A stretch of DNA of 49,145 bases, from the NCBI GenBank assembly GCA_017934545.1, contig JAGBJI010000003.1, positions 1-49,145 of the forward strand, given 5' to 3'. A model generated the notes under the pieces. It saw nothing but the letters and a program-made list of their open reading frames with translations, was not told the origin of the DNA and ran no database searches. The position numbers were made by a program, and so were the translations under genes. Positions 1,318 through 42,535 of the stretch are shown here, one piece after another (the stretch's first letter is position 1; every line of letters begins with the position of its first letter). The DNA is from Bacteroidales bacterium. Its GTDB lineage: Bacteria > Bacteroidota > Bacteroidia > Bacteroidales > P3.

Positions 1318-1440
1318 CTTTTCTGAAAGCAAAGAAAAAAAACATATGTATTTTTTCAAAAAAACATATGAATTTTAATCAAAAAACATATGTTTTTGAA
1401 GAAAAAAACATATGTTTTTTATTTTTAGGTTGTGAAAACA
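1318..1440 (+). repeat. CATATG phased-palindrome element, copy 1
   Basis: Four CATATG palindromes begin at 1343, 1365, 1387 and 1409, exactly 22 bp apart, each in an A-tract/T-tract context. The flanks carry inverted arms (TTTTCTGAAA on the left, TTGTGAAAACA on the right). The spacer between palindromes 3 and 4 reads TTTTTGAAGAAAAAAA, which is the reverse complement (one base different) of the same spacer in copy 3. It lies downstream of the rnfE terminator. Confidence 0.9.
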
Positions 1441-1447
1441 AAAAAAC

Positions 1448-1481
1448 AAACCGGAAAAGTTTTTCTTTACTTTTCCGGTTT
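1448..1481 (-). terminator. Intrinsic terminator of the rnf operon
   Basis: A perfect 13-bp stem (AAACCGGAAAAGT paired with ACTTTTCCGGTTT) with an 8-nt loop lies about 20 bp past the rnfE stop. On the minus strand it is followed by a T-rich run, as expected for factor-independent termination. It marks the end of the operon directly after rnfE. Confidence 0.85.
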
Positions 1482-1502
1482 AACATGAAAAAAAAACAGG
1501 AT

Positions 1503-2090
1503 TTATTTCTTCTTTTCTTTGATACTGTTGACTATTGCTATCAAATAACCCAGAACGATAAACGCTCCCGGAGGCAGAATAAACAACAACATGCCGTCAC
1601 CGCTCCAAAGATTTACGCCGAAGATACTGCCTGCACCCAAGATTTCACGCAACGAACCCAGAAGGGTCAAGGCTATGGTGAATCCTAACCCAATACCTAT
1701 GCCGTCAAACAACGAGTTGATGACATTGTTTTTGGAAGCAAAGGCTTCGGCTCTTCCCAAGATGATACAGTTGACAACAATCAACGGGATAAAGATACCC
1801 AGCGATGCGTCCAACGCAGGCAGGTATGCCTTGATGGCTAACTGCAAGATGGAAACGAATGCTGCTATCACCACGATAAAGGCAGGTATGCGGACTTTGT
1901 CGGGTACGAGGTTTTTGATGGCGGATATTGCCATATTTGAACACATCAAAACGAACATGGTACACAGTCCCATAGCCATACCGTTAGATGCCGAAGTGGT
2001 GGTAGCCAATGTAGGACACATACCCAGCAACAGTGCAAAGGTAGGGTTTTCCTTAATGATACCGTTCAATATTATTTTCATTCCGTTCAT
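1503..2090 (-). CDS. rnfE: Rnf electron transport complex subunit E
   Basis: This 195-residue integral membrane subunit belongs to the RnfA/RnfE/NqrD/NqrE family. It is assigned as E rather than A by the KENPTFALLLGMCPTLA opening and by the SLGIFIPLIVVNCIILGRA segment. The two conserved half-membrane cysteines are present at residues 25 and 108; in the family they form, with the partner subunit, the intramembrane [2Fe-2S] site. About six hydrophobic helices are visible. It is the last gene of the operon, 15 bp after rnfG, and is followed at once by a terminator. The usual partner rnfA is not found after it. Confidence 0.95.
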   Translation of the reverse strand: MNGMKIILNGIIKENPTFALLLGMCPTLATTTSASNGMAMGLCTMFVLMCSNMAISAIKNLVPDKVRIPAFIVVIAAFVSILQLAIKAYLPALDASLGIFIPLIVVNCIILGRAEAFASKNNVINSLFDGIGIGLGFTIALTLLGSLREILGAGSIFGVNLWSGDGMLLFILPPGAFIVLGYLIAIVNSIKEKKK

Positions 2091-2105
2091 AGTCTGTTTC
2101 CTCCT

Positions 2106-2684
2106 TTATTGGTTTTGTGATTTCATAAATGCGTCGTATGCACACTGTACGGCAGTCAAAAAAGCACGCGAAGTGATGGTTGACGCCGTTATGGCGTCAA
2201 TATCGCCGCCGTCCTTTGTGACAACGAATTTGGTGTCTTTCGGGTTTTTGCCTACAATGTTGCCTTTGTCCTTGAACCATTCGGCTGCCTTGGCTCCCAA
2301 GCCGGGTGTTTCCGAAGTTTCCAACACGGTATAGCCCGTCACGGTGCCTGTTTTATCCATTCCGACCATCACCTTAAGGCGTCCGCCGTAGCCATTATTA
2401 TTATAAGTTTCAACGGCAGCACCCACGGTTTGTCCGTCTTTTACGGCAGGGTATACGACAAAGGCGTCCGTATAACCCTCCAGCTGTACCTGTACAGGTT
2501 GTTCAACCGCAGCCGTCTTGTCTGCCAAAACGTCTTTGATTGCCTGTTGTTGATTAGCAAGTTTGGCCTGTTCTATAGGCTGTTTGGTCAGTGCATATGC
2601 CCCTGCCAACAGTGCCGAAGCCACCAAAGCGATGAACGTTAAACTCATCACCATGTTTTTCATTGAAGATTCTAACTTTGCCAT
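2106..2684 (-). CDS. rnfG: Rnf electron transport complex subunit G (covalent FMN subunit)
   Basis: A 192-residue protein with one N-terminal membrane anchor (residues about 10-32) and a periplasmic FMN-binding domain. The site for phosphoester-linked FMN is the Thr in DAITASTITSRA near residue 170, equivalent to the family motif S/T-G-A-T. In Rnf, this subunit passes electrons from the periplasmic side of RnfD. It lies 4 bp after rnfD and 15 bp before rnfE, so the three genes are almost certainly cotranscribed. Confidence 0.95.
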   Translation of the reverse strand: MAKLESSMKNMVMSLTFIALVASALLAGAYALTKQPIEQAKLANQQQAIKDVLADKTAAVEQPVQVQLEGYTDAFVVYPAVKDGQTVGAAVETYNNNGYGGRLKVMVGMDKTGTVTGYTVLETSETPGLGAKAAEWFKDKGNIVGKNPKDTKFVVTKDGGDIDAITASTITSRAFLTAVQCAYDAFMKSQNQ

Positions 2685-2688
2685 AACT

Positions 2689-3663
2689 CTATCTTGTTTT
2701 TTGATAACCGAATTTATCTGTTTTTATGAATTTGTTTATCAACGGCGTCACTGCATTCATTATCAATATAGCAAAAGACACTCCCTCAGGCATAGGTCCG
2801 AAACAACGGAACACTATGGTCAACAGTCCGCAACCCGCACCGAAAATCAGTTGACCTTTATGTGTAACGGGCGAAGTGACCATATCGGTTGCCATAAAGA
2901 CGGCACCCAACATCATACCGCCTGCAAACAAATGGTAAAGCGGATTGGCGTATTGCGAAGGGTCAATCAACCACAACAATCCCGCAAAAACAAACGCCGT
3001 ACCCAAGAACGCAACGGGTATATGCCATGTTATCACTTTTTTGTACAACATATATATGCCTCCGATGATTACCGCCAACGCCGAAACCTCGCCGAACGCT
3101 CCGCCCGTCGCCCCAAGGAACAAATCGCTCAACGCAGGCAAATCGCCGCCGTGCGACATAAGGTTCAATGTTGTAGGTCCGCTTACGGCATCGGTCACTG
3201 CACATGAACCGAACAACGGTTTAGGCAAAGGCCATTCGCTCAACGCCACAGCCGTAGGGAAAGACAAAAACATGAAAACTCGTCCCACCAACGCAGGATT
3301 GAAAGGGTTTTTGCCCAATCCGCCGAAAGTCATCTTGCCTACACCCATTGCCACCAACGCACCTATGATTACCATCCACAAAGGCACATTGCTCGGCAGG
3401 TTGAACGCCAAAAGCATTCCCGTAACCACCGCCGAACCGTCGGTAACGGTGTTCTCCGTATGCAGAAGATATTTTCCGATAACCCATTCAAAGAACATAC
3501 ACGACGCAACGCTGACAAGCGTCACCATCAAGGCCGGAATACCGAAATAATATATTGCCGCAAGAAACGCAGGCAACATGGCAACCACCACCGACCACAT
3601 TATCTTTTGCGTAGTCTGCGTACCGTGTACGTGCGGTGAGCCTGAAATTGTTAGTAATGCCAT
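2689..3663 (-). CDS. rnfD: Rnf electron transport complex subunit D
   Basis: A 324-residue polytopic membrane protein of the NqrB/RnfD family. The covalent FMN site appears as S-G-P-T at residues 161-164 (family consensus S-G-A-T), following TDAV. About nine to ten hydrophobic segments are seen; GKNPFNPALVGRVF near residues 117-130 is a family signature. It belongs to the ion-translocating core. The gene starts 98 bp after an unrelated secreted-protein gene, a larger gap than elsewhere in the operon; no terminator is obvious in that gap. Confidence 0.95.
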   Translation of the reverse strand: MALLTISGSPHVHGTQTTQKIMWSVVVAMLPAFLAAIYYFGIPALMVTLVSVASCMFFEWVIGKYLLHTENTVTDGSAVVTGMLLAFNLPSNVPLWMVIIGALVAMGVGKMTFGGLGKNPFNPALVGRVFMFLSFPTAVALSEWPLPKPLFGSCAVTDAVSGPTTLNLMSHGGDLPALSDLFLGATGGAFGEVSALAVIIGGIYMLYKKVITWHIPVAFLGTAFVFAGLLWLIDPSQYANPLYHLFAGGMMLGAVFMATDMVTSPVTHKGQLIFGAGCGLLTIVFRCFGPMPEGVSFAILIMNAVTPLINKFIKTDKFGYQKTR

Positions 3664-3760
3664 ATCTATCTATATTTTTTAAGTTATTATTTTGTTATCA
3701 TCTTTTTTTGCCCCCATACAATATATATTGACGGCAATTTTATTGTCACATGTTTTGATT

Positions 3761-4396
3761 CTATTCACGTTTATACACATCCGTTTGCTCATCTAGTTCC
3801 ATGAAAAAATAAAAATCAGGCAGTGCGTACTTTATTTGTACTTCTTTATTCAACTTGTTACACAACTCTATTGACTTATCCACCGCTCCGCACAAATATA
3901 TGGAATAAACGTTTTTCTCTACTGTATCAACTTTGCTGCATTGAATATTGTGATATTTTATAAAGTTGGTAATACTTACGTTGTCTTGAAGTTTTACTGT
4001 AATGGAATTTGAAGGCCAAATCGGTGATGAACTCCGTATATTCCCTGCTGAATCCGTCAAATACAGTTTTTGCGTAAAACTTACATACAATGAATCCTGT
4101 CCCAACTGCCTGCAAATATCATAAATCTGCTCTTCGCTCAAAGCATCGCACTCAAAACCGTCGGCGAAATCAGAAAGATTTTCCGTCATAGATGACAAAC
4201 GTTTCTTCATTTCAGAACGTTTTTCTTCACAAACGCTCATTGAATAATTTATAACGGTACTTGTGGTGTCTGCAATAAAAATCTCTTCCCTTGCTAAAGA
4301 AGTATACAAACGCACTTTGTTATCTTTCCCTTGTCCGAAAACAAAGGAACAGTTCAATACAACCGTTAACAATAATATGTATACCGCTTTATTCAT
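3761..4396 (-). CDS. Secreted protein resembling a subtilase (S8) prodomain, gene 2 of pair
   Basis: A 211-residue exported protein: signal peptide MNKAVYILLLTVVLNCSFVFGQ, no lipobox cysteine. Residues about 130-200 (SITVKLQDNVSITNFIKYHN ... VQIKYALPDFYFFM) have the look of the N-terminal prodomain of Bacteroidetes S8 peptidases: a KL strand, a helix, a YxIYL strand, a second helix, then an A-x-PDF strand. No catalytic Asp, His or Ser motif of a protease is present. It follows a similar gene after 22 bp, inside the rnf gene run. It may be an orphan prodomain acting as a protease inhibitor, or a remnant of a split protease. The fold assignment is by eye. Confidence 0.5.
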   Translation of the reverse strand: MNKAVYILLLTVVLNCSFVFGQGKDNKVRLYTSLAREEIFIADTTSTVINYSMSVCEEKRSEMKKRLSSMTENLSDFADGFECDALSEEQIYDICRQLGQDSLYVSFTQKLYLTDSAGNIRSSSPIWPSNSITVKLQDNVSITNFIKYHNIQCSKVDTVEKNVYSIYLCGAVDKSIELCNKLNKEVQIKYALPDFYFFMELDEQTDVYKRE

Positions 4397-4418
4397 TTAT
4401 TATATAATATTATTAATA

Positions 4419-5132
4419 CTACTTATGCATATATTCTTCTATACCGCCTGTTCTTAATAATATATCTTGCACATTGCTTTTGTCTGTCTTCTCTTCGCTG
4501 CATTGAACAGTTGTCTTGCAGGGTTTGCCATTGGCACTTGCCACAGGTATAAAGCCGTAAGACACCGCTTGTGCCACGCCTTGTTCTTGCAACAAATTGC
4601 CTGCTTGAAGATTACTGCAGTACGGATTTTTCAAAACTTTCAAATCAACCCATCTATATAAAAACTTTTCACTGTAAACACGTATTATTTTTAAATACGG
4701 ATATTGCTTCAACAATACAGTATCTTCAAGTTGTTTTAATTGTATTGACAACCGACCGGATATTAATACATGCTGATTGTCTTCATCTATAACTTGGTCT
4801 GCGTAAACAATGTCTTCACTTGATATTAATTGTTTATAGACGCTGTCATAATTGTTGTTAAGGATTTCTATATCATAAAAGCCTCTTACTGTATCACCGT
4901 CTTTGAATATAGGAGTTATATTGTACTTCCGCTCTATTGTTTTTATGTCGTTTTTTGTCAAATCAAAACAAACCGTAAAGTGCTGTTTGTTCAGCGGTAA
5001 GTATATCTTCTCGTCCTTATAATAGTAATAGACAGAGTCAGGTGTATTGCTCCTGTCCTCAACTCTTTGTCCGAAGACAACAGTACCCACCCCGATAAAA
5101 AACAACAGTGAAAACAGTATTTGTTTTTTCAT
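4419..5132 (-). CDS. Secreted protein resembling a subtilase (S8) prodomain, gene 1 of pair
   Basis: The start at 5132 (MKKQILFSLLFFIG...FGQ) gives a proper signal peptide; an upstream in-frame ATG at 5201 would add 23 residues before it and is unlikely. The mature protein of about 215 residues begins SVYYYYKDEKIYLPL, much like the opening of Bacteroidetes S8 peptidase propeptides (YYYYxGxKIxL). It continues with two strand-helix-strand units (FTVCFDLTKNDIKTIERKYN; LSIQLKQLEDTVLLKQYPYL). No protease domain follows. It lies 89 bp after rnfC, with a strong RNA hairpin in the gap, and 22 bp before the related gene 3761-4396. Confidence 0.5.
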   Translation of the reverse strand: MKKQILFSLLFFIGVGTVVFGQRVEDRSNTPDSVYYYYKDEKIYLPLNKQHFTVCFDLTKNDIKTIERKYNITPIFKDGDTVRGFYDIEILNNNYDSVYKQLISSEDIVYADQVIDEDNQHVLISGRLSIQLKQLEDTVLLKQYPYLKIIRVYSEKFLYRWVDLKVLKNPYCSNLQAGNLLQEQGVAQAVSYGFIPVASANGKPCKTTVQCSEEKTDKSNVQDILLRTGGIEEYMHK

Positions 5133-5159
5133 TTCAAACGGAATACAAATATGTTTTTC

Positions 5160-5210
5160 ACCCGTACGTTGCTGCGTTGCGTAGTGCAAAACAGGCAACA
5201 ACGTACAGGT
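5160..5210 (-). promoter_or_regulatory. Intercistronic hairpin after rnfC
   Basis: A 16-bp inverted repeat (5160-5175 and 5195-5210) with a 19-nt loop. On the minus-strand RNA both imperfect positions become G-U pairs, so the stem is complete in the rnf transcript but not in the opposite one. No T-run follows, so it is more likely a processing or stability element than a terminator. Confidence 0.55.
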
Positions 5211-5221
5211 TTAACGTTTAT

Positions 5222-6553
5222 TTATTTTTGTGTTCTGGCACGCCGCAACGCTCCGACTTGGTTTTTGCCCACGCGTATCAAATCCAGCAACGGACGGTTG
5301 GCAGGACAGGTGAACAAACAGCAACCGCATTCTATGCAATCCATAACACATTCTTTCTCGGCGTCCTCCCACCGTTTCAAATCGCACAGAGAAGCCAACA
5401 TTAACGGCTCCAAGCCCATAGGACATGCACTTACGCATTTGCCGCAACGTATACAGTTGGTTTGTTTTCCGCGTTTGGCTTCTTTTTCGGTCATAACCAA
5501 AACGGACGATGTAGTTTTGACCGTCGGGGCAGACGTATCCATAATGGCTTTGCCCATCATAGGACCGCCGCTTATCAATTTGCCCGTATCTTCAGGCAAT
5601 CCGCCGCAATAGTCTATGATTTCCTGCAACGGAGTTCCCACACGGACTAAAAGGTTTTTCTGATTCTTTACGCTTTTGCCCGTAAAAGTCAAAACATTGT
5701 CTATCAACGGACGGTTTTTTTGCACCGCTTGATAGACTGCAAGTGCAGTGCCTACGTTGTCAACAACGCACCCTACTTCAATAGGAAGTTTGCCTGACGG
5801 TACTTCTCTGCCTGTCAAAGCGTTTATCAGTTGTTTCTCCGCTCCTTGAGGATATTTCATCTCCAACGGTACGACCTTTGTTCCCGGATATTTGGCGGAC
5901 ATCTCGGTCATAACCTTGATTGCTTCGGGTTTGTTTTTCTCTATACCGACAAGGGCGTTGTTCATGTTCAACGCTTTTTTCATTATCTCAATACCGATAA
6001 AGATTTCTTCGGTGTTTTCAATCATTATACGGTTGTCGGAAGTAAGATAAGGTTCGCATTCCACGCCGTTGATAATCAAAAACTCCGCTTTCTTTCCCTC
6101 GGGAATCATGTATTTGACGTTAGTAGGGAATGCTGCACCGCCCAAACCCACTATTCCGCAGTCTTTCATGCGGTTAATAATCTCTTTGGACGAAAGTTTT
6201 ATGTCTTTTATCAACGTATCGGTAGTGTCAATGCCCTCTTCCCATTCGTCACCCTCTACATCTATATATACAGCCGGCTTTTTAAAGCCGTTGAAATCCG
6301 TTGCAACGTCAACCTTTGCCACCGTACCCGAATAAGGCGAGTGGACGTTGGCACAAATAAACGCTTCGGCTTTGGACAAAAGCGTTCCCACTTTGACCTT
6401 GTCGCCTTTTTTAACCACGCATGTTGCAGGGGCGCCCAAATGTTGCGAAACAAAAACGACAGCCTTCTTTGTCAAAGGCATTATTTCTATCTTGGAATCC
6501 TTTGCCAATTTATTTTCTTCGGGGTGAACCCCTCCTTTTCTGAATGTTGCCAT
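5222..6553 (-). CDS. rnfC: Rnf electron transport complex subunit C (NADH-binding)
   Basis: A 443-residue peripheral subunit on the cytoplasmic face, carrying the NADH/FMN site. GLGGAAFPTNVKY at residues 136-148 is the nucleotide/FMN-binding segment shared with NuoF. Two [4Fe-4S] motifs follow: C367-C370-C373-C377 and C406-C409-C412-C416. Length and domain order match the family. It starts 4 bp after rnfB. In the usual Bacteroidetes order rnfD would come next; here two unrelated secreted-protein genes intervene. Confidence 0.97.
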   Translation of the reverse strand: MATFRKGGVHPEENKLAKDSKIEIMPLTKKAVVFVSQHLGAPATCVVKKGDKVKVGTLLSKAEAFICANVHSPYSGTVAKVDVATDFNGFKKPAVYIDVEGDEWEEGIDTTDTLIKDIKLSSKEIINRMKDCGIVGLGGAAFPTNVKYMIPEGKKAEFLIINGVECEPYLTSDNRIMIENTEEIFIGIEIMKKALNMNNALVGIEKNKPEAIKVMTEMSAKYPGTKVVPLEMKYPQGAEKQLINALTGREVPSGKLPIEVGCVVDNVGTALAVYQAVQKNRPLIDNVLTFTGKSVKNQKNLLVRVGTPLQEIIDYCGGLPEDTGKLISGGPMMGKAIMDTSAPTVKTTSSVLVMTEKEAKRGKQTNCIRCGKCVSACPMGLEPLMLASLCDLKRWEDAEKECVMDCIECGCCLFTCPANRPLLDLIRVGKNQVGALRRARTQK

Positions 6554-6557
6554 AATC

Positions 6558-7475
6558 TTACTCTGATTTTTCGGTTTTTATTTCCGTTGTGTTTGCCGTT
6601 TGTTGCACGTTTTCCGCCGTTGCAGTCTGTGCATTGTCCTGCGGCTTAGGTTTGGCAGGCGGGAAATTGACTGCATGTATTGCTCCGGTAGGACATACCG
6701 CCACACATTTGCGGCACATCTTACATTTGTTGAAATCTATGTACGAAAGATTGTTTTCTATGGTTATCGCTCCGAAAGGACATTCCTTTTCGCATTTGCC
6801 GCAGCCTATACATGCCGCATCACAGTTTTTCTTTGCCGCAGCACCTTTGTCTTTGTTTATACAGCAAACGTAAACGCGTCTTGAGTTTTTGCCTTTCTTT
6901 CTCAACTCTATGACTTTTCTCGGACATGCTTTGGCACACGCACCGCAACCGACGCACTTTTCTTCGTTGACTTCAGGCAATCCCGTTTGTTCATTGACGT
7001 AAAGAGCGTCAAATTTGCAGACGCTTGCACATGTTCCCAAGCCCAAACATCCGAACTGACATCCGCCTTCGGAAGAGAAGTTTTGGTTGGCACTTGCACA
7101 ATCAGCCACTCCGTCGTAAACAACCTTGGCTTTGGTGTTGCATTTGCCGCCGTTGCAGCGTACTACAGCCACCATCGGCTCGCTTTCTGCGGCTGCCAAG
7201 CCCATTATATCACCCACTTTGGCCATCACTGCAGCACCGCCCACGGGGCAGGTCTTGTTTTCCATATCTCCTGCCTTAACTATTGCCTCTGCCAAGCCTC
7301 TGCAACCTGCAAAACCGCAGCCTCCGCAATTGGCACCGGGCAAAACTTCCGCAACTTCATCAATACGCGGGTCTTCAACTACTTTAAACTTTTGAGCAAC
7401 AAGGTACAACACCAAGGATAATATCAATCCTGCTATTGCCATAGCTGCTATTGCGTAAATTATAACTGTTCCCAT
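6558..7475 (-). CDS. rnfB: Rnf electron transport complex subunit B (ferredoxin subunit)
   Basis: A 305-residue protein with an N-terminal membrane anchor (residues about 4-28). Next comes the four-Cys cluster domain (C50, C53, C58, C76) typical of RnfB, then several ferredoxin-type [4Fe-4S] motifs (around C139-C153, C174-C184, C222-C232, C251-C261). It is longer than the proteobacterial form of about 190 residues, as is normal for anaerobes. It accepts electrons from reduced ferredoxin and is the first gene of the operon. A candidate promoter lies about 30 bp upstream at 7504-7511. Confidence 0.96.
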   Translation of the reverse strand: MGTVIIYAIAAMAIAGLILSLVLYLVAQKFKVVEDPRIDEVAEVLPGANCGGCGFAGCRGLAEAIVKAGDMENKTCPVGGAAVMAKVGDIMGLAAAESEPMVAVVRCNGGKCNTKAKVVYDGVADCASANQNFSSEGGCQFGCLGLGTCASVCKFDALYVNEQTGLPEVNEEKCVGCGACAKACPRKVIELRKKGKNSRRVYVCCINKDKGAAAKKNCDAACIGCGKCEKECPFGAITIENNLSYIDFNKCKMCRKCVAVCPTGAIHAVNFPPAKPKPQDNAQTATAENVQQTANTTEIKTEKSE

Positions 7476-7503
7476 AGTTACTGTATATTTATTTAATAAA
7501 GTG

Positions 7504-7511: not shown

Positions 7512-7626
7512 TTAATTTTTTTTGACTTTGAAAGTAAAAAAACGCTAAAATCTTATTCCGCACCTCTGTTTGCACAATTTACAAAAGCAAAACAAGGTCT
7601 TACAAAACTGTTTTTTTGAATCAAAT

Positions 7627-7715
7627 CTCTGCAAAACCGTCTTGCAAGCACTGCAAAACCGTCTTGCAGACCTTGCAAGACGGTTTTGCAGTGCTTGCAA
7701 GACGGTTTTGCAGAG
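7627..7715. repeat. Perfect 42-bp inverted repeat of four 22-bp-phased palindromes
   Basis: Arms 7627-7668 and 7674-7715 are perfect reverse complements with a 5-nt centre (GACCT). Inside are four 17-bp palindromic units, TGCAA(7 nt)TTGCA in form, starting at 7630, 7652, 7674 and 7696, exactly 22 bp apart. The first two units are identical and the last two are their reverse complement. It sits between the divergent rnfB and transporter genes. The layout equals that of the CATATG elements although the sequence differs. The rest of 7476-7850 holds only the two candidate promoters. Confidence 0.9.
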
Positions 7716-7809
7716 TTGTGGTTTGGGATTTCAGTTTTTTAAAACCAAAAAGCAAACCCATATTTTAAAGAAATAATGTATTTATGTCCTGTTTTAAAGA
7801 ATTTATCAC

Positions 7810-13090: not shown

Positions 13091-13261
13091 TAATTACAAT
13101 TGTTTACAAAAAACTTACTCTCCTCCCCGTTTTTTTACACATATATATTATAATATCTTTATTTCGCCCTGTATAAAAAGGTTTTTAAATAGCGGGAAAA
13201 TCCTTTGCATTAAAAACCCGCATCACTTGATTAAAAGAAGAAAAATGAGATGATACAAAAT

Positions 13262-13386
13262 TGTTTTCAGAAAAGAGAAATAAAAAACATATGTATTTTT
13301 TCAAAAAAACATATGAATTTTAATAAAAAAACATATGTTTTTGAAATAAAAAACATATGTTTTTTTTTCTGCGGATTCTGAAAACA
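13262..13386 (+). repeat. CATATG phased-palindrome element, copy 2
   Basis: CATATG at 13288, 13310, 13332 and 13354, each 22 bp apart. The arms are TGTTTTCAGAAAAG on the left and TTCTGAAAACA on the right, inverted to each other. The third spacer (TTTTTGAAATAAAAAA) is the reverse complement, with one base changed, of that in copies 4 and 5. It lies downstream of the flavodoxin-like gene (minus). Apart from this and the ssb promoter, 13027-13426 shows nothing else. Confidence 0.9.
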
Positions 13387-13426
13387 ATCCGTAAGAATGT
13401 AAATATACATTTAACAAAAAGGCATT

Positions 13427-19608: not shown

Positions 19609-19697
19609 ACCGCAAAAACCGTATTCAAAACAGACTTGCGTCTTAACAAAGAATAAAAAATTGCCGGTAACGTAATTATCACTGCACTTTGATGAAT

Positions 19698-19821
19698 TGT
19701 TTTGTGAATCTGTCAGAAAAAAACATATGTATTTTTTCAAAAAAACATATGAATTTTAATCAAAAAACATATGTTTTTTTCTTCAAATACATATGTTTTT
19801 TATTTTTACTTTCTGAAAACA
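19698..19821 (+). repeat. CATATG phased-palindrome element, copy 3
   Basis: CATATG at 19724, 19746, 19768 and 19790, each 22 bp apart. The third spacer is TTTTTTTCTTCAAATA, the inverted form of copy 1's. The right arm TTCTGAAAACA is conserved; the left arm is weaker (TCAGAAAA). It lies downstream of the MCE gene, where no other terminator is visible. The rest of 19609-19953 has no recognised feature. Confidence 0.9.
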
Positions 19822-19953
19822 TTTTTTTTAATTCATAAAAAACAAGCATTAAAACCGAAAAGTGTATAAGAATAAATAAGGTTTAAGTAACTTTTTCAAC
19901 ATTCAAAGGGTTTTTAAAAGGGAACATAACACAAATTTAATAACATTAAAAAC

Positions 19954-26920: not shown

Positions 26921-26935
26921 ATCACTCTAAAAAAT

Positions 26936-27061
26936 TGTTTTCAGAAACCGTTTCAAAAAAACATATGTATTTGAAATAAAAAACATATGTTTTTTGATTA
27001 AAATTCATATGTTTTTTTGAAAAAATACATATGTTTTTTATTTTTCTTTTCTGAAAAGAAA
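26936..27061 (-). repeat. CATATG phased-palindrome element, copy 4 (inverted)
   Basis: CATATG at 26962, 26984, 27006 and 27028, each 22 bp apart. On the minus strand the spacers read as in copy 5. The arm TTTTCTGAAAAG ends 4 bp from the stop of the convergent serpin-like gene. With the terminator and the B module this accounts for the gap 26704-27064. Confidence 0.9.
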
Positions 27062-27064
27062 TTT

Positions 27065-28120
27065 TTAAGGCATGGCAAAGATGCCGGCAAACATTATAAA
27101 GTTTGAACTTTTGCCTCTTACGATAAACAAAAACGGAGAATTGTATTTCAACGGTGCGGATTGGTTGTTCTGCATTATATTGTTGGCGGCATTAACCGTG
27201 AGTTGTTCGGACAATTCCGTCATATCTGCATTGGTAACGGCAAACTGTGTGATGACATTCAGACGTTTAGGAAAATTGACCGTTGAATCTTCCGTGCTGA
27301 AAGACGGCATAACCAGATTGCGTACAGTATCGTTTATCTCAAACAACGGCAACGATACCTTGACTTTGCGTTCCTGCATGGCATTGATAAGGGTCAGATA
27401 TTTTTCTTCGTCAAAGTCCGCCGTATAGTCCGCAATATTTTGTTCCAAAGGCTTGACCAACATCAGCATATAGTTTCCGTTGCCTACGGGTATCTCCGCT
27501 GCCTGTTCACGGGAGGAAATATACGTGCGTATTTCATCGCTTACGGTAAAAAAATTCAGCCTCGGCTTGCTGTTGTCCGAAGAAGTAAAAATATTGTCAA
27601 CGTCATCGGGTGCGGCATCTTTGTACATAAGTTTGATTTTCAACGTTTGCAAAACCGTCAAAAGAGAATCGCTGCTATCAACAACAGAACTTTTTATATC
27701 CATCAGTGAATCAATCTCTTTGACATTGTTTTGCAACGATTGCATTGCTATATTTAACTGCTGCGGATTCAAAAAAGTAAGGTTGTAATTGCTGCAATAC
27801 GCCCCGCTCCACGCTTGAAGCGAGGTGTCGCACATCACAGTGTTGACAAGATACAGCGGTGCAAAAGCCAAATTCCTGCAGGCAGTGTCCTGCACTGCAC
27901 GGGCAAGAGTTGTACACGCAAAATTGTTGCTTGCCTGAAACATTTTAATCTGTTGCAGCGAAAACTTTTCGGCGGGAGTTCCCACCATTGCAGACGGGGA
28001 AACGGATATGCTGTAAAGGTTGTCGCTCTTTTTGGTGCAACCCTGCACAATCAATACGGCAGAAAAAACTACCGCCATAATTATCTCAATTTTTTTCATT
28101 TTCAACATCATATTATTCAT
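27065..28120 (-). CDS. Divergent serpin-like lipoprotein
   Basis: 351 residues. A lipobox (LIVQGC) places a lipidated Cys near residue 28. Serpin-like features by eye: an early helix followed by ACRNLAFAPLYLVNTV (compare N-x-x-x-S-P-L in serpins), KVKVSLPLFEINDTV (strand 6B-like), and the C-terminal SPFLFIVRGKSSNFIMFAGIF, close to the serpin end PFLF-x-I-R-x5-LF-x-G. The usual hinge (E-E-G-T-x-A) is not recognisable; the loop region reads TVNAANNIMQNNQS. It is shorter than a typical serpin by about 30-40 residues. It may be a degenerate or non-inhibitory serpin. An alternative is an unrelated lipoprotein with chance similarity. Confidence 0.6.
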   Translation of the reverse strand: MNNMMLKMKKIEIIMAVVFSAVLIVQGCTKKSDNLYSISVSPSAMVGTPAEKFSLQQIKMFQASNNFACTTLARAVQDTACRNLAFAPLYLVNTVMCDTSLQAWSGAYCSNYNLTFLNPQQLNIAMQSLQNNVKEIDSLMDIKSSVVDSSDSLLTVLQTLKIKLMYKDAAPDDVDNIFTSSDNSKPRLNFFTVSDEIRTYISSREQAAEIPVGNGNYMLMLVKPLEQNIADYTADFDEEKYLTLINAMQERKVKVSLPLFEINDTVRNLVMPSFSTEDSTVNFPKRLNVITQFAVTNADMTELSEQLTVNAANNIMQNNQSAPLKYNSPFLFIVRGKSSNFIMFAGIFAMP

Positions 28121-35881: not shown

Positions 35882-35883
35882 AA

Positions 35884-36342: not shown

Positions 36343-36387
36343 GTTTTACTTAAATTGTTTACTTTCTCAAAAATAACTAAACTCAAC

Positions 36388-36438
36388 GATGTTTTTACGC
36401 AGCATTTCAAAGGCCAATAAGAAACGCTTAAAAACATC
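36388..36438 (-). ncRNA. Candidate cis-regulatory leader of rplM
   Basis: In the rplM leader, GAUGUUUUUA pairs perfectly with UAAAAACAUC (10 bp). Inside it, GCGUUUC pairs with GAAAUGC around a 12-nt loop, with an asymmetric internal bulge (UGCG side). A ribosomal-protein leader class for L13 in Bacteroidia has been described in the literature, as far as I recall; whether this RNA belongs to it needs a covariance-model search. L13 or S9 binding could give feedback control. Confidence 0.55.
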
Positions 36439-36505
36439 CATTTGCTTCTAAATAAAGACATTGGCTATGGATTAACGGGTATTGCCCTGCCTTATTTAGA
36501 GTTTG

Positions 36506-36534
36506 CAAAGTTACGGATTTTTATTGAATTGCAA
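36506..36534 (-). promoter_or_regulatory. Promoter of the rplM-rpsI-rpsB-tsf run
   Basis: Minus strand TTG at 36532-36534, 18 bp, then TAACTTTG at 36506-36513. The match to consensus and spacing is good; it implies a leader of about 155 nt. Confidence 0.7.
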
Positions 36535-36694
36535 AAAAATCAACACATTTTTTTCATTCTTTTTAACAAATATTTGTTGATAACGGTTTTTTATCCGCAC
36601 AAAATCAGCGTATTACCTCATCTGAAATCAACTGAATATAAATCAATGCAACACACTTTTAATAAACAGTTATTGAAAACATCATTCTAAAGAT

Positions 36695-36820
36695 TTCTTT
36701 TCTGAAAAGAAAAATAAAAAACATATGTATTTTTTCAAAAAAACATATGAATTTTAATCAAAAAACATATGTTTTTTATTTCAAATACATATGTTTTTTA
36801 TTTTTAGATTTTGAAAACAA
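36695..36820 (+). repeat. CATATG phased-palindrome element, copy 5
   Basis: CATATG at 36722, 36744, 36766 and 36788, each 22 bp apart. The arms are TTTTCTGAAAAG on the left and TTTTGAAAACA on the right. It lies 46 bp downstream of the beta-barrel gene (minus), where no other terminator is seen. With the rplM leader and promoter this accounts for 36343-36866. Confidence 0.9.
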
Positions 36821-36866
36821 TAAGAAAAACAAAGGGATTGATGCCGCAGTTGTGTAAAAGATGTAA

Positions 36867-37568
36867 TTAAAATCTGAAGTTTTTGCCTTTTTTAAAGGTA
36901 TAACCCAAGTTAAGAGTCAACGAATAGGCTATTTCTTCCATATCAAAGAGGTATCCTCCCTGTGCCTGAAAGCCTAAATATATATTGTCAGTAATGTAAT
37001 ACTTGTATCCCAAGTCCAAACCGACGTAAGGATATGTCTTATTGTCGGAATTGCTGTTGTTGTCGTGGTGAAATTCGTCCTTAACTCCGTCATCGGTATA
37101 AACGGGAAGATAGTATTCGGTAAATCCGTCCATGCTTTTCATCCACATCATCAATCCTCCCGACAGTCCCATCTGAAACACGTGATTATCGGACGCAGAG
37201 TTGACCAAGCCGAACGCAAGATTGACCATGTGCTGCGAATCTTTGTACTTCTGTTCGTAGTACATACCTTTGTAATGGTCGTCTTCCGCACCCGTAACCA
37301 ACGCCGAATGCAAGGCAAAATTGGTATAAGTGAATTTTATATAGAACGAACCTTTGCGGGTCCACTGGTAAGAAAAGCCCAGAGGGAAACCTTTGATGTC
37401 TTTATACAATTGGTCGGTGTTGTTGTTTATTGCATTGTAACCGATATTGAGTTGAAAGGAATGGGTATTGAAGTTTTCTTTCAATAAGAAGATATTTCCG
37501 ACCGTTTTTTGTGTAAATGCAGGCAGCGACAATGCCGTTAACAAGGTTATAATCAATATTTTTTTCAT
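36867..37568 (-). CDS. Outer-membrane beta-barrel protein
   Basis: Started at 37568 (MKKILIITLLTALSLPAFTQ); an in-frame ATG at 37592 precedes it but overlaps the -7 box. 233 residues of alternating strands, with an Asp/Asn-rich external loop (HHDNNSNSDNK) and a terminal Phe (KKGKNFRF). Family not identified. Promoter at 37590-37619. Confidence 0.65.
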   Translation of the reverse strand: MKKILIITLLTALSLPAFTQKTVGNIFLLKENFNTHSFQLNIGYNAINNNTDQLYKDIKGFPLGFSYQWTRKGSFYIKFTYTNFALHSALVTGAEDDHYKGMYYEQKYKDSQHMVNLAFGLVNSASDNHVFQMGLSGGLMMWMKSMDGFTEYYLPVYTDDGVKDEFHHDNNSNSDNKTYPYVGLDLGYKYYITDNIYLGFQAQGGYLFDMEEIAYSLTLNLGYTFKKGKNFRF

Positions 37569-37589
37569 CGTTTTCAACAATTTATTTTG

Positions 37590-37619
37590 CAAATATACAA
37601 CTTTTCCTTGATTATCAAA
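37590..37619 (-). promoter_or_regulatory. Promoter of the beta-barrel gene
   Basis: Minus strand TTTG at about 37616-37619, 18 bp, then TATATTTG at 37590-37597; gives a leader of about 15-20 nt. Confidence 0.6.
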
Positions 37620-37709
37620 TAATTTTCGTTGAAATTAAAGGTTTTCACATAGGCGGCAGGTGATAAAAAATACTCATTTATGATTATTTCCCGCAACGGA
37701 AATTCTGTG

Positions 37710-37717
37710 TAATTTTG
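37710..37717 (+). promoter_or_regulatory. Candidate promoter of the uptake locus (-7 box)
   Basis: TAATTTTG fits TAnnTTTG, 58 bp before the membrane-protein gene at 37775. The -33 region is weak. Confidence 0.4.
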
Positions 37718-37774
37718 CAAACCGAAATTTTAAAGGCAATTTTTTTATAAAACACACATAAATATATATAATAA

Positions 37775-38698
37775 ATGAAACAAAAGTTTTATCCTGCAAA
37801 AGCGGTTCTGTCTTTTCTGTTGGTATTGTTCCTTATGCCATTGGGGCATGCTGCAATGATTTTGATGGAAAAATTCATGGACCCCGCCGCGCTTCACTTC
37901 TGTGCATTCATGCTCGGAGCCGTCGGCGTAGTTATAACCGTTGCGGGCATATTTATAAAAGGTGACACCAAGCAAACTCTTGCCGGTCTTATAGGAGGGC
38001 TTTTGTTTTGGACGGGATGGGTGGAATTTCTTTTGATGTACTACGCCAGAAGATTTCAAACCATGTGCGAATTGGAAAACGGTCAGTTGATGGACTTCAA
38101 CCAAGCCGTTGCACAAAACATGGACATTGCCACAAAACCCGAATATCTTATCCTGCCCTCAACGTTCGGCTTTTGGGCCATGTTTATGCTTTTCTATTTG
38201 TTCTGCATACCTACGGGTTGCAATTTTATAAACTGGTGCCAAAGGGTATTGTTCAGGTCAAAAAAACAGCAAATCGTAGCCAAACCCATAGTACGCCACA
38301 CTTCGTTGGTTACATTCCTTGAATTTAACATGATTATTTGGACGTCGTATCTTTTGCTGATGTTTCTTTACGATGACACTTTCTTCGGCGAAAGACATTG
38401 GTTCACATTGTCCGTCGGCGTTGCATGCTTGGTGGGAGCGTTTTTCATATTCAAAAAACAACTGCATCTGTCTTCATGGGGTGCAAACATAAGAATGGCA
38501 ATAGCAACGGTGATTGTGTTTTGGACGCCTGTGGAAATATTGGGACGGTTAAACTTTTTCAAAGAGATTTGGGTGCATCCCGAACAATACAAACAGGAAA
38601 TGATTACCATATTGCTTGCTTTCATTGCCGTTGCGGTGATAGTCATTGTGAACGGTATTGTTGTCAAGGGCGGCAAAAAACAAAATACCCAACAATAA
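37775..38698 (+). CDS. Polytopic membrane protein of unknown function
   Basis: 307 residues with about seven to eight hydrophobic segments (residues about 10-30, 42-60, 68-90, 122-148, 180-200, 208-226, 240-258, 278-298). A soluble loop near residues 92-120 (ARRFQTMCELENGQLMDFNQ) separates helices 3 and 4. No motif I recognise. It is 10 bp upstream of the TonB-dependent receptor, so it probably serves the same substrate, either as inner-membrane partner or regulator. Confidence 0.6.
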   Translation: MKQKFYPAKAVLSFLLVLFLMPLGHAAMILMEKFMDPAALHFCAFMLGAVGVVITVAGIFIKGDTKQTLAGLIGGLLFWTGWVEFLLMYYARRFQTMCELENGQLMDFNQAVAQNMDIATKPEYLILPSTFGFWAMFMLFYLFCIPTGCNFINWCQRVLFRSKKQQIVAKPIVRHTSLVTFLEFNMIIWTSYLLLMFLYDDTFFGERHWFTLSVGVACLVGAFFIFKKQLHLSSWGANIRMAIATVIVFWTPVEILGRLNFFKEIWVHPEQYKQEMITILLAFIAVAVIVIVNGIVVKGGKKQNTQQ

Positions 38699-38708
38699 GT
38701 AGGAGAAG

Positions 38709-40976
38709 ATGAGAGGTAAGTTGTTTGTTGTTTTCATGTTTTGGTCTTGCGTGGCTTTCGGTCAGCAGATGGACACGGTCAATATTGAAGAAATAAAAAT
38801 AGTTTCTTCAATAAAAACCGACGAGAGTCTGCAAAAGATGACTTCTTTTGTAAACACTTACAACCAACAATACTTAAACAACCACAACGTAAAGGATTTC
38901 AAAGATTTTTCTTCATATACGCCGTCGCTTTTCATACCCGATTACGGTTCAAAGGTCACAAGCAGTATATATTTGCGGGGATTGGGGTCAAGGATTGACA
39001 ATTCGTCGGTCGGCATATGCCTTGACGGAGTTATGCTTTTGAACAAAAACTGCTTTGATTTCGGATATTTTGATTTGTCAAAAGTCAACATATATAAAGG
39101 AGCTCAAAGTTTGACGTTCGGAATGAACACTATGGCGGGGGTAATATCACTCACTACATTAAGCCCTTTTGATTACAAAGGAATAAAGTTAAGTACGGGC
39201 ATCGCTTCGGGCAGTACATACAACGCTGCCTTGTCGTATTACGGCAGCATAAACGGACATACCGCTTATATGGCGGGCATTGACATGGGTTCTTCGCAGG
39301 GATATTTTGACAATGCGTACGACAACTCCGATTGCGATTGGCAACGCACGGCCAACGGCCGCCTTATATTTGAATACCGTAAGGGAAACGTAACGGCAAA
39401 GAACTCCACGTATCTGTCTTTTATTCACATGGGTGGTTATCCTTACTGTCTTTACGACACCGTTTCGCACTCTCACGGCAAGGTAAACTACAATGATTTT
39501 TCGGGTTACGACCGTTTGAACCTTATAAACAACACTTCATATATTTATTCTTCGCACGGAAAATACATATTCCAATCTTTAACTTCCGTACAACTGAACT
39601 TTGACAAACTGCAATTGGATAATGATTTTACTTCTTTGTCATATTTCACCCTTGAACAGAAGGAAAAAGACTTTGCGTTGTCACAGGAATTCATCATAAC
39701 CGACGACAACCGCACTGACAATTGGAATTGGACAGCCGGAGCGTTTGTTTTCGGCAAATATCTCAACATGCAGGCTCCTGTATTGTTCAAACAGGACGGT
39801 ATTCAGGCATTAATTTTGGACAATGCCAACAACGGACTGCATGTAATGTTTCCTTCGTACGACATAGAGTTCAAAGAAACAAGTATGAAGGTAACCGACA
39901 ACTTTAAATATCCGAGATTCGGAGGGGCATTGTACGCCCAAGCGGATTACACTCTGAAAAGATGGATTTTTTCTCTCGGTGCAAGACTGGATTACGAACA
40001 TGTAAGCCTTGATTACGACAACTACGCACAGGTGAATTACCGCCTTGTGCCTATAATGACGCAATACCGTTTTCTGCCCGTAAGTTTTAAAGGCAGTGCA
40101 AGCGAAGATTATCTTCAGTTTTTGCCTAAACTTGCCGTCAGTTTCAACCTTAACCAACGCAAAGACAATATTTACGCAAGCATAAGCAAAGGTTACATGA
40201 CGGGAGGATACAACACATCAATGTTTGCCGACATTATACGCAATCAAATGATGCAAAACATGCTTGCGGATTTGGGTATTGAACCCCAACAAGGCACGTC
40301 TATGGAAGATATTTACGCATCGTACGGCAAGGAAAATATAATCGGTTACAAACCGCAGTACATTTGGGATTGGGAAATAGGCACCAAACTGAATTTCTTT
40401 GACAACAGACTGAACGTAAACGCCGCTGTGTTTTACATAGACGTCCGTAACCAACAGTTGACCGTGTTTCCAAGCCCGCAGACTACGGGAAGAATGATGA
40501 CCAATGCCGCCAAAAGCCGTTCGTTCGGCACGGAACTGTCGGCAAATATGAGAATAAATGGTTTCATTTTGAACGTGAACTACGGATATACTAATGCCAA
40601 GTTCACATCATACAATGACGGAAAATCGGAATATAAAGGCAATTTTTTGGTATATTATCCCGTTAATACATTGTGTGTTATGGCTGACTACGTATTGCAT
40701 TTGGACAACAGATATTTGGACAATATCAATTTTTCCGTTTCCTACAACGGAGCGGGAAACATATATTTCAACCAGCAAAACACCGTTTACCAAAAATATT
40801 ACTCGCTTGTCAATGCAGACATAACCCTTAAACGCAGCATATACGCCGTAAGCCTGTGGGTACGCAACATTTTTAACACCGACTATCTTACTTTCTACTT
40901 CCTTTCAAGCGGAAACAATTTCGTACAATGCGGCAAACCTCTCACTTTCGGCCTTACATTCAGAGTTAACAGATAG
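38709..40976 (+). CDS. TonB-dependent outer-membrane receptor
   Basis: 755 residues: signal peptide (ending FGQ), a TonB-box-like segment MDTVNIEEIKIVSS, and a plug domain with the typical IYLRGLGSR, GICLDGVML and the KGAQSLTFGMNTMAGVISL block. A 22-strand barrel follows, ending PLTFGLTFRVNR. No SusD partner follows, so it is not a typical SusC. It is followed by three small paralogous exported proteins that may bind the ligand. Iron, haem, cobalamin or metal substrates are possible; the sequence does not decide. Confidence 0.92.
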   Translation: MRGKLFVVFMFWSCVAFGQQMDTVNIEEIKIVSSIKTDESLQKMTSFVNTYNQQYLNNHNVKDFKDFSSYTPSLFIPDYGSKVTSSIYLRGLGSRIDNSSVGICLDGVMLLNKNCFDFGYFDLSKVNIYKGAQSLTFGMNTMAGVISLTTLSPFDYKGIKLSTGIASGSTYNAALSYYGSINGHTAYMAGIDMGSSQGYFDNAYDNSDCDWQRTANGRLIFEYRKGNVTAKNSTYLSFIHMGGYPYCLYDTVSHSHGKVNYNDFSGYDRLNLINNTSYIYSSHGKYIFQSLTSVQLNFDKLQLDNDFTSLSYFTLEQKEKDFALSQEFIITDDNRTDNWNWTAGAFVFGKYLNMQAPVLFKQDGIQALILDNANNGLHVMFPSYDIEFKETSMKVTDNFKYPRFGGALYAQADYTLKRWIFSLGARLDYEHVSLDYDNYAQVNYRLVPIMTQYRFLPVSFKGSASEDYLQFLPKLAVSFNLNQRKDNIYASISKGYMTGGYNTSMFADIIRNQMMQNMLADLGIEPQQGTSMEDIYASYGKENIIGYKPQYIWDWEIGTKLNFFDNRLNVNAAVFYIDVRNQQLTVFPSPQTTGRMMTNAAKSRSFGTELSANMRINGFILNVNYGYTNAKFTSYNDGKSEYKGNFLVYYPVNTLCVMADYVLHLDNRYLDNINFSVSYNGAGNIYFNQQNTVYQKYYSLVNADITLKRSIYAVSLWVRNIFNTDYLTFYFLSSGNNFVQCGKPLTFGLTFRVNR

Positions 40977-40994
40977 AAAAACATTAATAAACAG

Positions 40995-41468
40995 ATGAAA
41001 ACACTGAAACATATATTGATTTTATCCGCTTTGGCAGTCGGTTTTACCGCATGCGGTGACAACGAAAATGAAGAAGAACACAAAAAAGAAACAACCGAAT
41101 ACGAATTTACGGGCAATCTTTCGGTAAGCAACGGATACAAACAGGACGGTATCAACATGAATATAACGGTCAACCATCTTAAACAGATGTCCGATATTTA
41201 TATCAACCGCATAACTTTTTCCGAAAAGATGCCTTTTGTCAACGTAGACTTAAAAGAAATACCTTTTACCGTAAACGGCGGTGATACATTGTATGCCAAA
41301 GACACCATAGTGCCGTATTGGAACGGCGGAGCGGTGGAAAACATGACTCTGTACAATTTCAACGCCAAGGTAAACGCCGATTCGGTAAGTTTTTCCGCAC
41401 AGGGAGGCGTTGTATCGCAGGAAGGGGAAAACATATTGCTGTTCCAAGGCGTGAGAAACAAACATTAA
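40995..41468 (+). CDS. Calycin-like small lipoprotein, paralogue 1
   Basis: 157 residues; lipobox GFTAC puts the lipidated Cys at residue 20, and an acidic linker follows. The rest is beta-rich: YEFTGNLSVSNGYKQDG ... ITFSEKMPFVNVDLKEIPFTV ... FNAKVNADSVSFSAQG. It shares the pattern F-T-G-x-(L/V), F-x-EKMP, and a TVN-GDTL-A block with paralogue 3 (41931), and a looser pattern with paralogue 2. The layout recalls Bacteroidetes calycin-like proteins. Probably surface or periplasmic and linked to the receptor. Confidence 0.65.
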   Translation: MKTLKHILILSALAVGFTACGDNENEEEHKKETTEYEFTGNLSVSNGYKQDGINMNITVNHLKQMSDIYINRITFSEKMPFVNVDLKEIPFTVNGGDTLYAKDTIVPYWNGGAVENMTLYNFNAKVNADSVSFSAQGGVVSQEGENILLFQGVRNKH

Positions 41469-41484
41469 AACCGTTTACTACATA

Positions 41485-41892
41485 ATGAAAAAGACCCTTA
41501 TATTATATCTGACCGCCTGCCTTACGGTTTTGTCCGTTTTTTCGCAGAATACAAAATTCAAAGGTACGATGACAGTGGGCGACTATACACGCAAAAATGT
41601 TGTCATTGAAGTAAAAGAACACGGCAACAAAGCCGACGGAACCATATACAGAGCAAAGTTCGCCCGTTTAATGCCTATAAAAGTTGATGCAGACATAAAA
41701 AATTTGAACCGAACCGTACAAGCGGACAAAATTTTTCTGTCCGGAAACAACCTTATACCCTATGTCAAAGGGCAGGCTAAAGAAAAATACATGATAACCG
41801 GATTCAACGGCGTTATACACAACGGTGAATTGAGTATAACCACCCGTTTCGGAGAAAAGAAAGTGACCTACAAAGGTAAAAAAATACAATAA
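41485..41892 (+). CDS. Calycin-like small exported protein, paralogue 2
   Basis: 135 residues. The signal peptide ends VFSQ with no lipobox, unlike its two neighbours. The domain runs FKGTMTVGDYTRKNVVI ... AKFARLMPIKVDADIKNL ... FNGVIHNGELSITTRFG, the same strand order as paralogues 1 and 3. It lies 16 bp after paralogue 1. Being soluble, it might act between the two lipid-anchored forms; that is inference. Confidence 0.6.
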   Translation: MKKTLILYLTACLTVLSVFSQNTKFKGTMTVGDYTRKNVVIEVKEHGNKADGTIYRAKFARLMPIKVDADIKNLNRTVQADKIFLSGNNLIPYVKGQAKEKYMITGFNGVIHNGELSITTRFGEKKVTYKGKKIQ

Positions 41893-41930
41893 ATCAAAAT
41901 TAATAAACATTTAAAAAACAAATTAACGAA

Positions 41931-42356
41931 ATGAAAATTTACAAGAAATTATTGTTGGTTGCCCTTGCAGCCGTTGCATTCACTGCATGCAAAGATGACG
42001 ACGACGATTACGCGGTAAACAAGTCAACATTCACGGGAACCGTAACTTCAGGCGGATTCTCTTTGGACGGAGTTACGGTAAACACCGTTTCATACGAAGA
42101 AAACAAGAAGACGGACATCACTTTCAAACAAGTGACATTCAATGAAAAAATGCCTAAAGTAGACATGACCATCAACGGATTCTCATACACCGTAAATGAC
42201 GGCGACACTTTGTTGACGGCAAGTGATATTAAAATCACCGATGTTTACACCATGACTTCCGGTGAAGGCAAGATAACCAAGGACGGTATCGTTGTTTCGG
42301 CAACAATAAAGGTAATGGGCAAAGAAGTTGAGTTTGATTTCGAAGGCAGAAGATAA
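41931..42356 (+). CDS. Calycin-like small lipoprotein, paralogue 3
   Basis: 141 residues; lipobox AFTAC gives lipidated Cys20, followed by a run of acidic residues (KDDDDDY). The domain reads FTGTVTSGGFSLDGVTVN ... VTFNEKMPKVDMTINGFSYTV ... GDTLLTASDI ... KVMGKEVEFDFEG. It is closest to paralogue 1. The stop codon lies inside the loop of an intrinsic terminator. Confidence 0.65.
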   Translation: MKIYKKLLLVALAAVAFTACKDDDDDYAVNKSTFTGTVTSGGFSLDGVTVNTVSYEENKKTDITFKQVTFNEKMPKVDMTINGFSYTVNDGDTLLTASDIKITDVYTMTSGEGKITKDGIVVSATIKVMGKEVEFDFEGRR

Positions 42357-42368
42357 TCTGCCTTTTTT
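42345..42368 (+). terminator. Terminator overlapping the stop codon of paralogue 3
   Basis: GGCAGA (42345-42350) pairs with TCTGCC (42357-42362) around a 6-nt loop that contains the TAA stop, then six T. The stem codes for the last residues of the protein. Confidence 0.75.
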
Positions 42369-42388
42369 ATTGTAACAACCAATAAAAT

Positions 42389-42535
42389 CCTTTTCAGAAA
42401 AGAAAAAATCATATTCAGAAACCATTTCAGAAAAACATATGTATTTTTATAAAAAAACATATGAATTTTAATCAAAAAACATATGTTTTTTAAATTAAAT
42501 ACATATGTTTTTTATTTTTCTTTTCTGAAAAAGAT
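42389..42535 (+). repeat. CATATG phased-palindrome element, copy 6
   Basis: CATATG at 42436, 42458, 42480 and 42502, each 22 bp apart. The first and third spacers have drifted (TATTTTTATAAAAAAA; TTTTTTAAATTAAATA). The left side shows a doubled CAGAAA arm, suggesting a small duplication. The right arm is CTTTTCTGAAAA. Confidence 0.9.

Follow-up and report, generated by a model that had tools for sequence, protein, structure and literature searches.

REP, BIME and REPIN sequences, which occur with RAYT transposases, are dispersed short extragenic palindromes with species-specific motifs, and to our knowledge their definition includes no fixed helical spacing. In the iterons of plasmid origins, short sites recur roughly every two helical turns, and a protein binds them along one face of the DNA. 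The BrickBuilt miniature inverted-repeat transposable element (MITE) of Porphyromonas gingivalis is intergenic and multi-copy, with 23-nucleotide tandem units, inverted ends and predicted long stem loops (Klein et al. 2015, PMC4596501); the same study gives 19 copies in strain ATCC 33277, of 1 to 22.8 units each, and BLAST matches in P. gingivalis only, together with homologues in P. gulae. A second account (PMC4679880) describes TAACTGA direct repeats in Beggiatoaceae, cyanobacteria and some Bacteroidetes, in more than 100 intergenic sets upstream of genes, the heptamers lying mostly no more than several nucleotides from a start codon and being thought to act post-transcriptionally. Related background is given in PMC5771137. 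Judging from titles and the openings of abstracts, we recognized no description of two-turn arrays in the phylum Bacteroidota in the open-licence literature. Here we describe arrays of the palindrome CATATG, typically four sites at 22-bp steps, in a Bacteroidales genome (G000; 2.38 Mb; assembly GCA_017934545.1). The window, which is the whole stretch of DNA analysed, is the entire contig C2 of this genome (JAGBJI010000003.1; 49,145 bp). Placement of the genome in the Bacteroidales is supported by Pfam hits and by the resemblance between arrays from genomes of its order and those from named Bacteroidales.

The window holds six such arrays, and all 18 CATATG-N16-CATATG pairs within them start 22 bp apart, compared with none expected from 100 dinucleotide-preserving shuffles. 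Array 1 (1310..1447, plus strand, limits taken from conservation across 96 copies) has CATATG at 1343, 1365, 1387 and 1409, set in A/T tracts between outer arms. Four sites each are also present in arrays 2 (13255..13392, first CATATG at 13288), 3 (19691..19828, first at 19724), 5 (36689..36826, first at 36722) and 6 (42403..42540, first at 42436), all on the plus strand, and in array 4 (26929..27066, first at 26962), which is on the minus strand, its orientation being opposite as judged by the middle spacer, and is the only array of the window in a convergent gap. An earlier reading of the DNA letters (the sequence-only reading) had reported these positions and the exact 22-bp steps, both of which we confirm, and an interval of 6–12 kb between arrays, which is roughly right (5.7 to 11.9 kb as measured). 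It was also correct that all six arrays are intergenic and that each is flanked by at least one gene 3′ end facing the array (five tandem gaps and one convergent). An Rfam scan of the window at the gathering score detected 5S rRNA only, with no match at the arrays.

Across the whole of G000 we counted 332 CATATG pairs at 22 bp and 215 triples. DNA was fetched around most of these pairs (735 kb with the window included, in stretches picked for holding CATATG arrays; about 20 of the 332 pairs lie outside them) and contained 106 arrays, comprising 99 with four sites, 5 with three and 2 with two. Two of the 106 are duplicates from redundancy between contigs C4 and C7, which leaves 104 distinct arrays; allowing for unfetched pairs, the genome has about 110. 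Contig C4 duplicates part of C7 (L107/L114 and L108/L115), three arrays all being displaced by 7,440 bp between the two, and the assembly is redundant, with a contamination value of 8.1. CATATG neighbours less than 80 bp apart in the fetched stretches were spaced 22 bp in 309 of 318 cases, and the site cores of 2 of the 106 copies touch a called gene edge, genes having been called by a codon-usage caller made for the present analysis rather than by a standard gene finder. Conserved spacing and rarity inside genes, the two points on which the sequence-only reading had staked its claim, thus both hold beyond the window.

Each element is about 137 bp long, with four dyad sites in 22-bp steps enclosed by outer arms that are inverted relative to each other in the consensus. 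Conservation was assessed in 96 oriented four-site copies, after exclusion of the two duplicates and of a copy located where a fetched stretch ends; the conserved unit extends about 33 bp past the sites on each side, with the arm consensus TTGTTTTCAGAAAAG. Over 411 units of the fetched stretches, the dyad match was 1.00 at 3–5 bases from the core, 0.75 at 1 base and 0.48 at 2 bases, so the 18-bp palindrome described earlier is complete in its outer part and imperfect beside the core. The tract bases, four on each side of the core, are off consensus in 89 of 3,072 cases (2.9%), the first-spacer centres in 103 of 576, the third-spacer centres in 236 of 576 (41%), and the arms in 675 of 2,016 and 660 of 2,112 (31–33%). 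A core-blind search for sites by their tracts alone found 46 arrays, of which 34 had CATATG at all three examined sites, 12 had other cores throughout and none was mixed. Strict sites are found almost solely in arrays, with 197 inside and 2 outside. One of these 2 is an array's fourth site, out of register; the other belongs to a single-site element, at L099:14104, in which both outer arms surround one CATATG. Damage is rare: where arrays fall short of four regular sites (seven cases), the changes are a point change in one core, a 23-bp step in two copies, and whole-unit losses. Seven forms of the third spacer occur in both orientations (24/5, 7/4, 6/2, 6/3, 4/2, 3/1 and 1/1), which suggests that a segment between two palindromes can invert; spacers one and two mostly have a single form (58/96 and 71/96, respectively).

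The sequence-only reading had also proposed inverted outer arms and a hairpin over the whole element. The arms are inverted in the consensus, with about a third of their bases off it in individual copies, and arms within a copy match no better than arms from permuted copies in a terminal inverted repeat test. Within-copy arm complementarity was 19.6/34, compared with 20.3/34 for permuted copies (standard deviation 0.26), and the same pairing test of spacer one against spacer three gave 10.34/16, compared with 10.57/16. If anything, perfect inversion is avoided. Without covariation between the arms, it is unlikely that a hairpin is the feature that is kept.

These properties set the arrays apart from the systems introduced above. 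They share with REP sequences and their RAYT transposases the dispersal of short palindromes and the species-specific motifs, but they have fixed helical spacing, and the Y1 (TnpA_REP) transposase (PF01797) was not found in G000. With iterons they have in common short sites spaced by roughly two helical turns; iterons, in contrast, occupy one origin, whereas the arrays occupy about 110 intergenic places. BrickBuilt is similar in being intergenic, present in many copies, built of units of about two helical turns and flanked by inverted ends, and differs in its variable number of units; the arrays, in contrast, have exactly four sites in 99 of 106 cases, about 110 copies, several families and a phase kept across species. 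Its IS5-like terminal inverted repeat GAGACCTTTGCA matched the window four times with 2 mismatches (3.3 expected), never at an array, and its 23-nucleotide unit AGAYCATARTATCCTCTCRTRTG had no match anywhere in the window even when 3 mismatches were allowed. Since the window has neither this unit nor these ends, and since BrickBuilt varies in its number of units, we conclude that the arrays are not BrickBuilt members; BrickBuilt could be a further example of the class to which they belong. The TAACTGA sets resemble the arrays in amounting to more than 100 intergenic sets of one short word, but the abstract describing them (PMC4679880) mentions neither palindromes nor two-turn spacing.

The spacing is not confined to CATATG. 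We scanned intergenic DNA for arrays with no sequence assumption, comparing lags 21–23 and 42–46 with the rest of the range 9–47; the scan excluded two short stretches, L234 and L246. G000 had 131 arrays at helical lags and 4 elsewhere; 102 of the 131 were CATATG arrays and 29 were not, so that without the family by which the stretches had been selected the ratio was 29:4. Ratios in congeners were 66:2 in G001, 13:0 in G008 and 4:2 in unselected stretches of G009, which were counted apart from the majority of its stretches, picked for matching an array. Other genera of the family gave 4:1 (nine stretches), and other families of the order gave 0:1 in a small sample (nine stretches, 146 kb). An Escherichia coli control of 150 kb gave 0:0, with one array, at lag 18, when the threshold was slightly lowered. 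Shuffled gaps of G000, G001 or G008 contained no array at lags 20–23. Separate scans that covered lags 21–23 alone gave the two further families of the window, the 22-bp family of G001 and the arrays of the outer-arm motif, all described below.

Two of these families lie in the window. The first (7612..7739, strand not assigned) has four 17-bp sites TGCAAAACCGTCTTGCA at 22-bp steps between divergent genes; its last two sites are inverted, which makes it a near-perfect inverted array with two sites per orientation. The second (46423..46506, strand not assigned) has three sites, AAAATACCC..GGTATTTT / AAAATACCCCCT.TTTTT, also at 22-bp steps, and further AAAATACCC...TTTTT sites occur at L106, L109, L122 and L126. 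Arrays at 21 bp built from the outer-arm motif CTTTTCTGAAAAG were seen at L113:607-706 and L145:7514-7612. A search of congeners G008 and G001 for any word recurring in phase found units at 21 bp, TAAAACAAAG and TAATCTGCG, respectively; G001 has a second family, A7-NNN-T7 sites at 22 bp with arms TGGCGTATTA...TAATACGCCA, and G009 has the nearest relative of the CATATG element, with AAAAACCTATGTTTTT, CCATGG and CATAGG sites at 22 bp. The three-site CATATG pattern was found in none of 40 relatives, 13 of them congeneric. Of 295 genomes from the order, 4 (G000 included) contain the three-site CATATG pattern, and the reversed control, three GTATAC at 22 bp, had 17 matches in a single genome (G110, same order). 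With that control matching another genome 17 times and congeners using other cores, we rejected CATATG as a universal site. We conclude that CATATG is not essential and that unrelated motifs, both within G000 and in its congeners, follow the same period, which bears out the earlier claim of a genuinely constrained 22-bp spacing. That nearly the same spacing goes with different sequences suggests that the cell or its mobile DNA relies on the spacing itself.

When the genome_contigs collection was scanned for four CATATG in 22-bp steps, at least 73 loci were found; chosen by the CATATG pattern, these cannot show that CATATG is special, and only their other arrays are a fair sample. Among the matches listed, 66 loci are titled Bacteroidales or Bacteroidetes, several genomes have many loci, and the spacers are species-specific. 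Seven of the loci listed are, by title, outside Bacteroidales (Sphingobacterium, two Psychrobacter, Desulfamplus, and metagenome-assembled genomes of Clostridia, Nitrosopumilaceae and Gammaproteobacteria), and the last six of these look by eye like plain tandem repeats. In ten named groups among the matches listed, intergenic arrays other than the pattern itself fell at helical lags in 14 cases and at other lags in 11; in 17 mixed loci, again among the matches listed, the counts were 0 and 11. Among the matches listed, the sites of some genomes are extended dyads, with GAACATATGTTC in two and a near match to it in a third, and those of others are not. A helical excess is therefore evident within this genus and some of the order, but not everywhere. 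BLAST searches of plasmid and phage collections gave no match, a weak result given that BLAST masks low-complexity DNA. Viral contigs contained 16 stretches (L079–L094) with three CATATG at 22 bp, mixed in appearance.

Array positions are independent between species. G001 had an array in 5 of 18 orthologous upstream gaps in which G000 has an array, compared with 6 of 22 in which G000 has none (Fisher P = 1); for downstream gaps the values were 3 of 8 and 6 of 24. Among 41 conserved neighbour pairs of the two genomes, five G001 gaps contain an array. Four of these gaps measure 172, 258, 145 and 122 bp, whereas their G000 counterparts measure 16, 20, 9 and 10 bp; the G001 array at L176 overlaps a called gene start. 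The fifth gap, apparently orthologous, holds unrelated array families in the two species (L121:3928-4119 and L177:14608-14786), with one neighbour pair 41% identical. Arrays seem to come or go as whole units, which is supported for G001 and likely for G000.

Placement relative to genes differed little from that expected by intergenic length. With duplicates dropped (n = 101), arrays of G000 occupied 37 divergent, 54 tandem and 10 convergent gaps, compared with 37.1, 47.9 and 16.0 expected (P = 0.22). The sequence-only reading had placed the arrays downstream of gene 3′ ends, which fails genome-wide, 37 of the 101 arrays lying between divergent genes and 10 between convergent ones; because placement across the genome is near the intergenic-length expectation, we regard the 3′-end rule as a local accident of the window. 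The 22-bp arrays numbered 8 divergent, 13 tandem and 1 convergent in G001 and 11, 12 and 0 in G009. A preference for divergent over convergent gaps (Fisher P = 0.0004) was also discarded, as it was mostly lost after correction for gap length (P = 0.22 in G000, 0.20 in G001 and 0.04 in G009). The sole placement bias that we retain is a deficit in convergent gaps, with 11 of the 22-bp arrays of three species in such gaps and 23.7 expected; the 21-bp family of G001 had no deficit (11 observed, 8.1 expected). Arrays are unevenly distributed along G000 (variance/mean 1.79 in 50-kb bins, P = 0.0015; 104 arrays with contigs laid end to end and unfetched arrays missing), and the window contig has the highest density, 12.2 per 100 kb.

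Phased sites on one face of the duplex are common to all families, and we propose that they are the footprint of one or more bending or wrapping proteins. The explanation we favour, to which we give about an even chance of being correct, is that the arrays are dispersed, mobile-like repeats whose constant feature is a row of sites on one duplex face, read by such a protein. Several short dyad sites two helical turns apart would present one face of the DNA; a putative DNA-bending or DNA-wrapping protein would bind them side by side and form a nucleoprotein stretch, which could serve either to recognize the element in the course of its own spread or, as a high-affinity site, to nucleate a nucleoid protein. 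The elements would be gained and lost whole, in the manner of a miniature mobile repeat. A protein reading the sites from one face had been suggested in the sequence-only reading and is still the best inference from the phase, but its focus on CATATG was too narrow, the spacing being more widely shared than the core. In this genus the A/T-tract families may also be pre-bent DNA, which would help wrapping. A wedge model (index, contour over end-to-end length) gave the CATATG arrays of G000 a mean predicted curvature index of 1.39, compared with 1.09 for shuffled and 1.05 for dephased sequences, and 96 of 96 arrays were above their own shuffles. The predicted index was 1.48 for the 22-bp family of G001 and 1.34 for the other families of G000. 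Dephasing used 22-bp blocks throughout, including for the 21-bp families.

Several observations weigh against this explanation or parts of it. The protein behind the phase is one that we infer. Conservation extends beyond the sites, the middle (second) spacer also being conserved (35 of 576, or 6%, off consensus), and low-complexity tracts and recent copying can mimic constraint. In the wedge model, the 21-bp families were near their shuffles (1.09 in G001, 1.10 in G008), as were CATATG arrays of other genera (seven groups, 1.03 to 1.10); some of the latter were weakly above shuffles (10/10 in X. caecicola, 5/5 in UBA2725), and dephasing slightly lowered most groups. We therefore rejected strong curvature as a universal feature: as predicted by the model, it is a trait of the A-tract families and not of the whole class. 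Array 2, the only array folded, forms as a single strand a structure far above its shuffles (z = -10.3 as DNA, -9.6 as RNA); with this fold and the near-perfect inverted array at 7612-7739, folded strands keep a possible, though weakened, role. With regard to mobility, target-site duplications of 2–9 bp were not found, the four best offset pairs per length being no better than the permuted maximum (200 permutations), and G000 had no transposase of PF01797, PF01609, PF00665 or PF02371, the only four families searched. Arrays of G000 yielded no clean empty site, all presence/absence cases being G001 arrays; one of these (L175) is below the threshold of the lag scan (best lag 21, score 26/42) and was judged by eye, and gap lengths also differ between species where there is no array (L180, L208).

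We rank the rival explanations as neutral burst, curvature alone, operator array and terminator, in descending order. The first, which we consider unlikely, is a neutral burst of a miniature mobile repeat in which the phase was inherited from one ancestral array and is read by nothing. It is consistent with the dispersed, intergenic and non-orthologous positions, with presence and absence unit by unit, and with the near-expected placement in G000 and G001 described above. Against such a burst, one period is shared by unrelated motifs, both within G000 and among its congeners, and neutral decay would not be expected to leave tracts with 2.9% deviation beside arms with more than 30%. The non-autonomous repeat put forward in the sequence-only reading stands to the extent that arrays are dispersed and those of the relative are present or absent as units; the lack of target duplications and of transposases of the four Pfam families speaks against it.

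Somewhat less probable still is a purely mechanical role, in which the curvature of phased A-tracts shapes supercoiling or promoter access without a dedicated protein. The strong predicted curvature of the 22-bp A-tract families is lost on dephasing, the 22-bp arrays avoid convergent gaps, and comparative work links phased A-tracts to nucleoid-associated proteins (PMC3940949). Yet the 21-bp families and the arrays of other genera are phased without strong predicted curvature, and curvature does not require fixed cores such as CATATG. We hold it improbable that the arrays are operators through which a single transcription regulator controls about 100 promoters. The sites are dyads, gene starts flank the arrays more often than gene ends (129 and 75, respectively), and the median distance from core to start is 175 bp, all of which speaks for an operator. 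Against this, lone sites are nearly absent (the 2 strict sites outside arrays, compared with 197 within them), several motif families coexist, and positions are not conserved at orthologous genes; a conserved regulon, as a candidate in its own right, was not supported for this last reason. A transcription terminator or RNA 3′-end hairpin, a candidate of the sequence-only reading, is very improbable and was rejected as the main function on placement and absent arm covariation (37 of 101 arrays are divergent, and convergent gaps are under-used, 10 of 53 holding an array); the stems are also nearly all A-T. This was despite the strong RNA fold of array 2 and the position of 47 of 55 tandem-gap arrays closer to the 3′ end of the upstream gene.

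More tentatively, the phased-site explanation may extend to a class of elements defined by helical phase in part of the Bacteroidales. Each species would have several families, each with about 3 to 12 dyad sites in steps of 21–23 bp, with the motif replaced between sister species and each family paired with a fast-changing DNA-wrapping protein that serves its own spread or the organization of intergenic DNA; we regard this as possible but rather doubtful. If the phase is selected, one bacterial family would provide many natural phasing experiments, with unrelated motifs and one spacing, and the protein (or DNA shape) that reads the helical face would be findable by a simple pull-down. Lag analysis of intergenic DNA finds such elements without sequence similarity, and short intergenic repeats such as BrickBuilt, until now listed species by species on the basis of their sequence, would, if the phase is selected, join one class.

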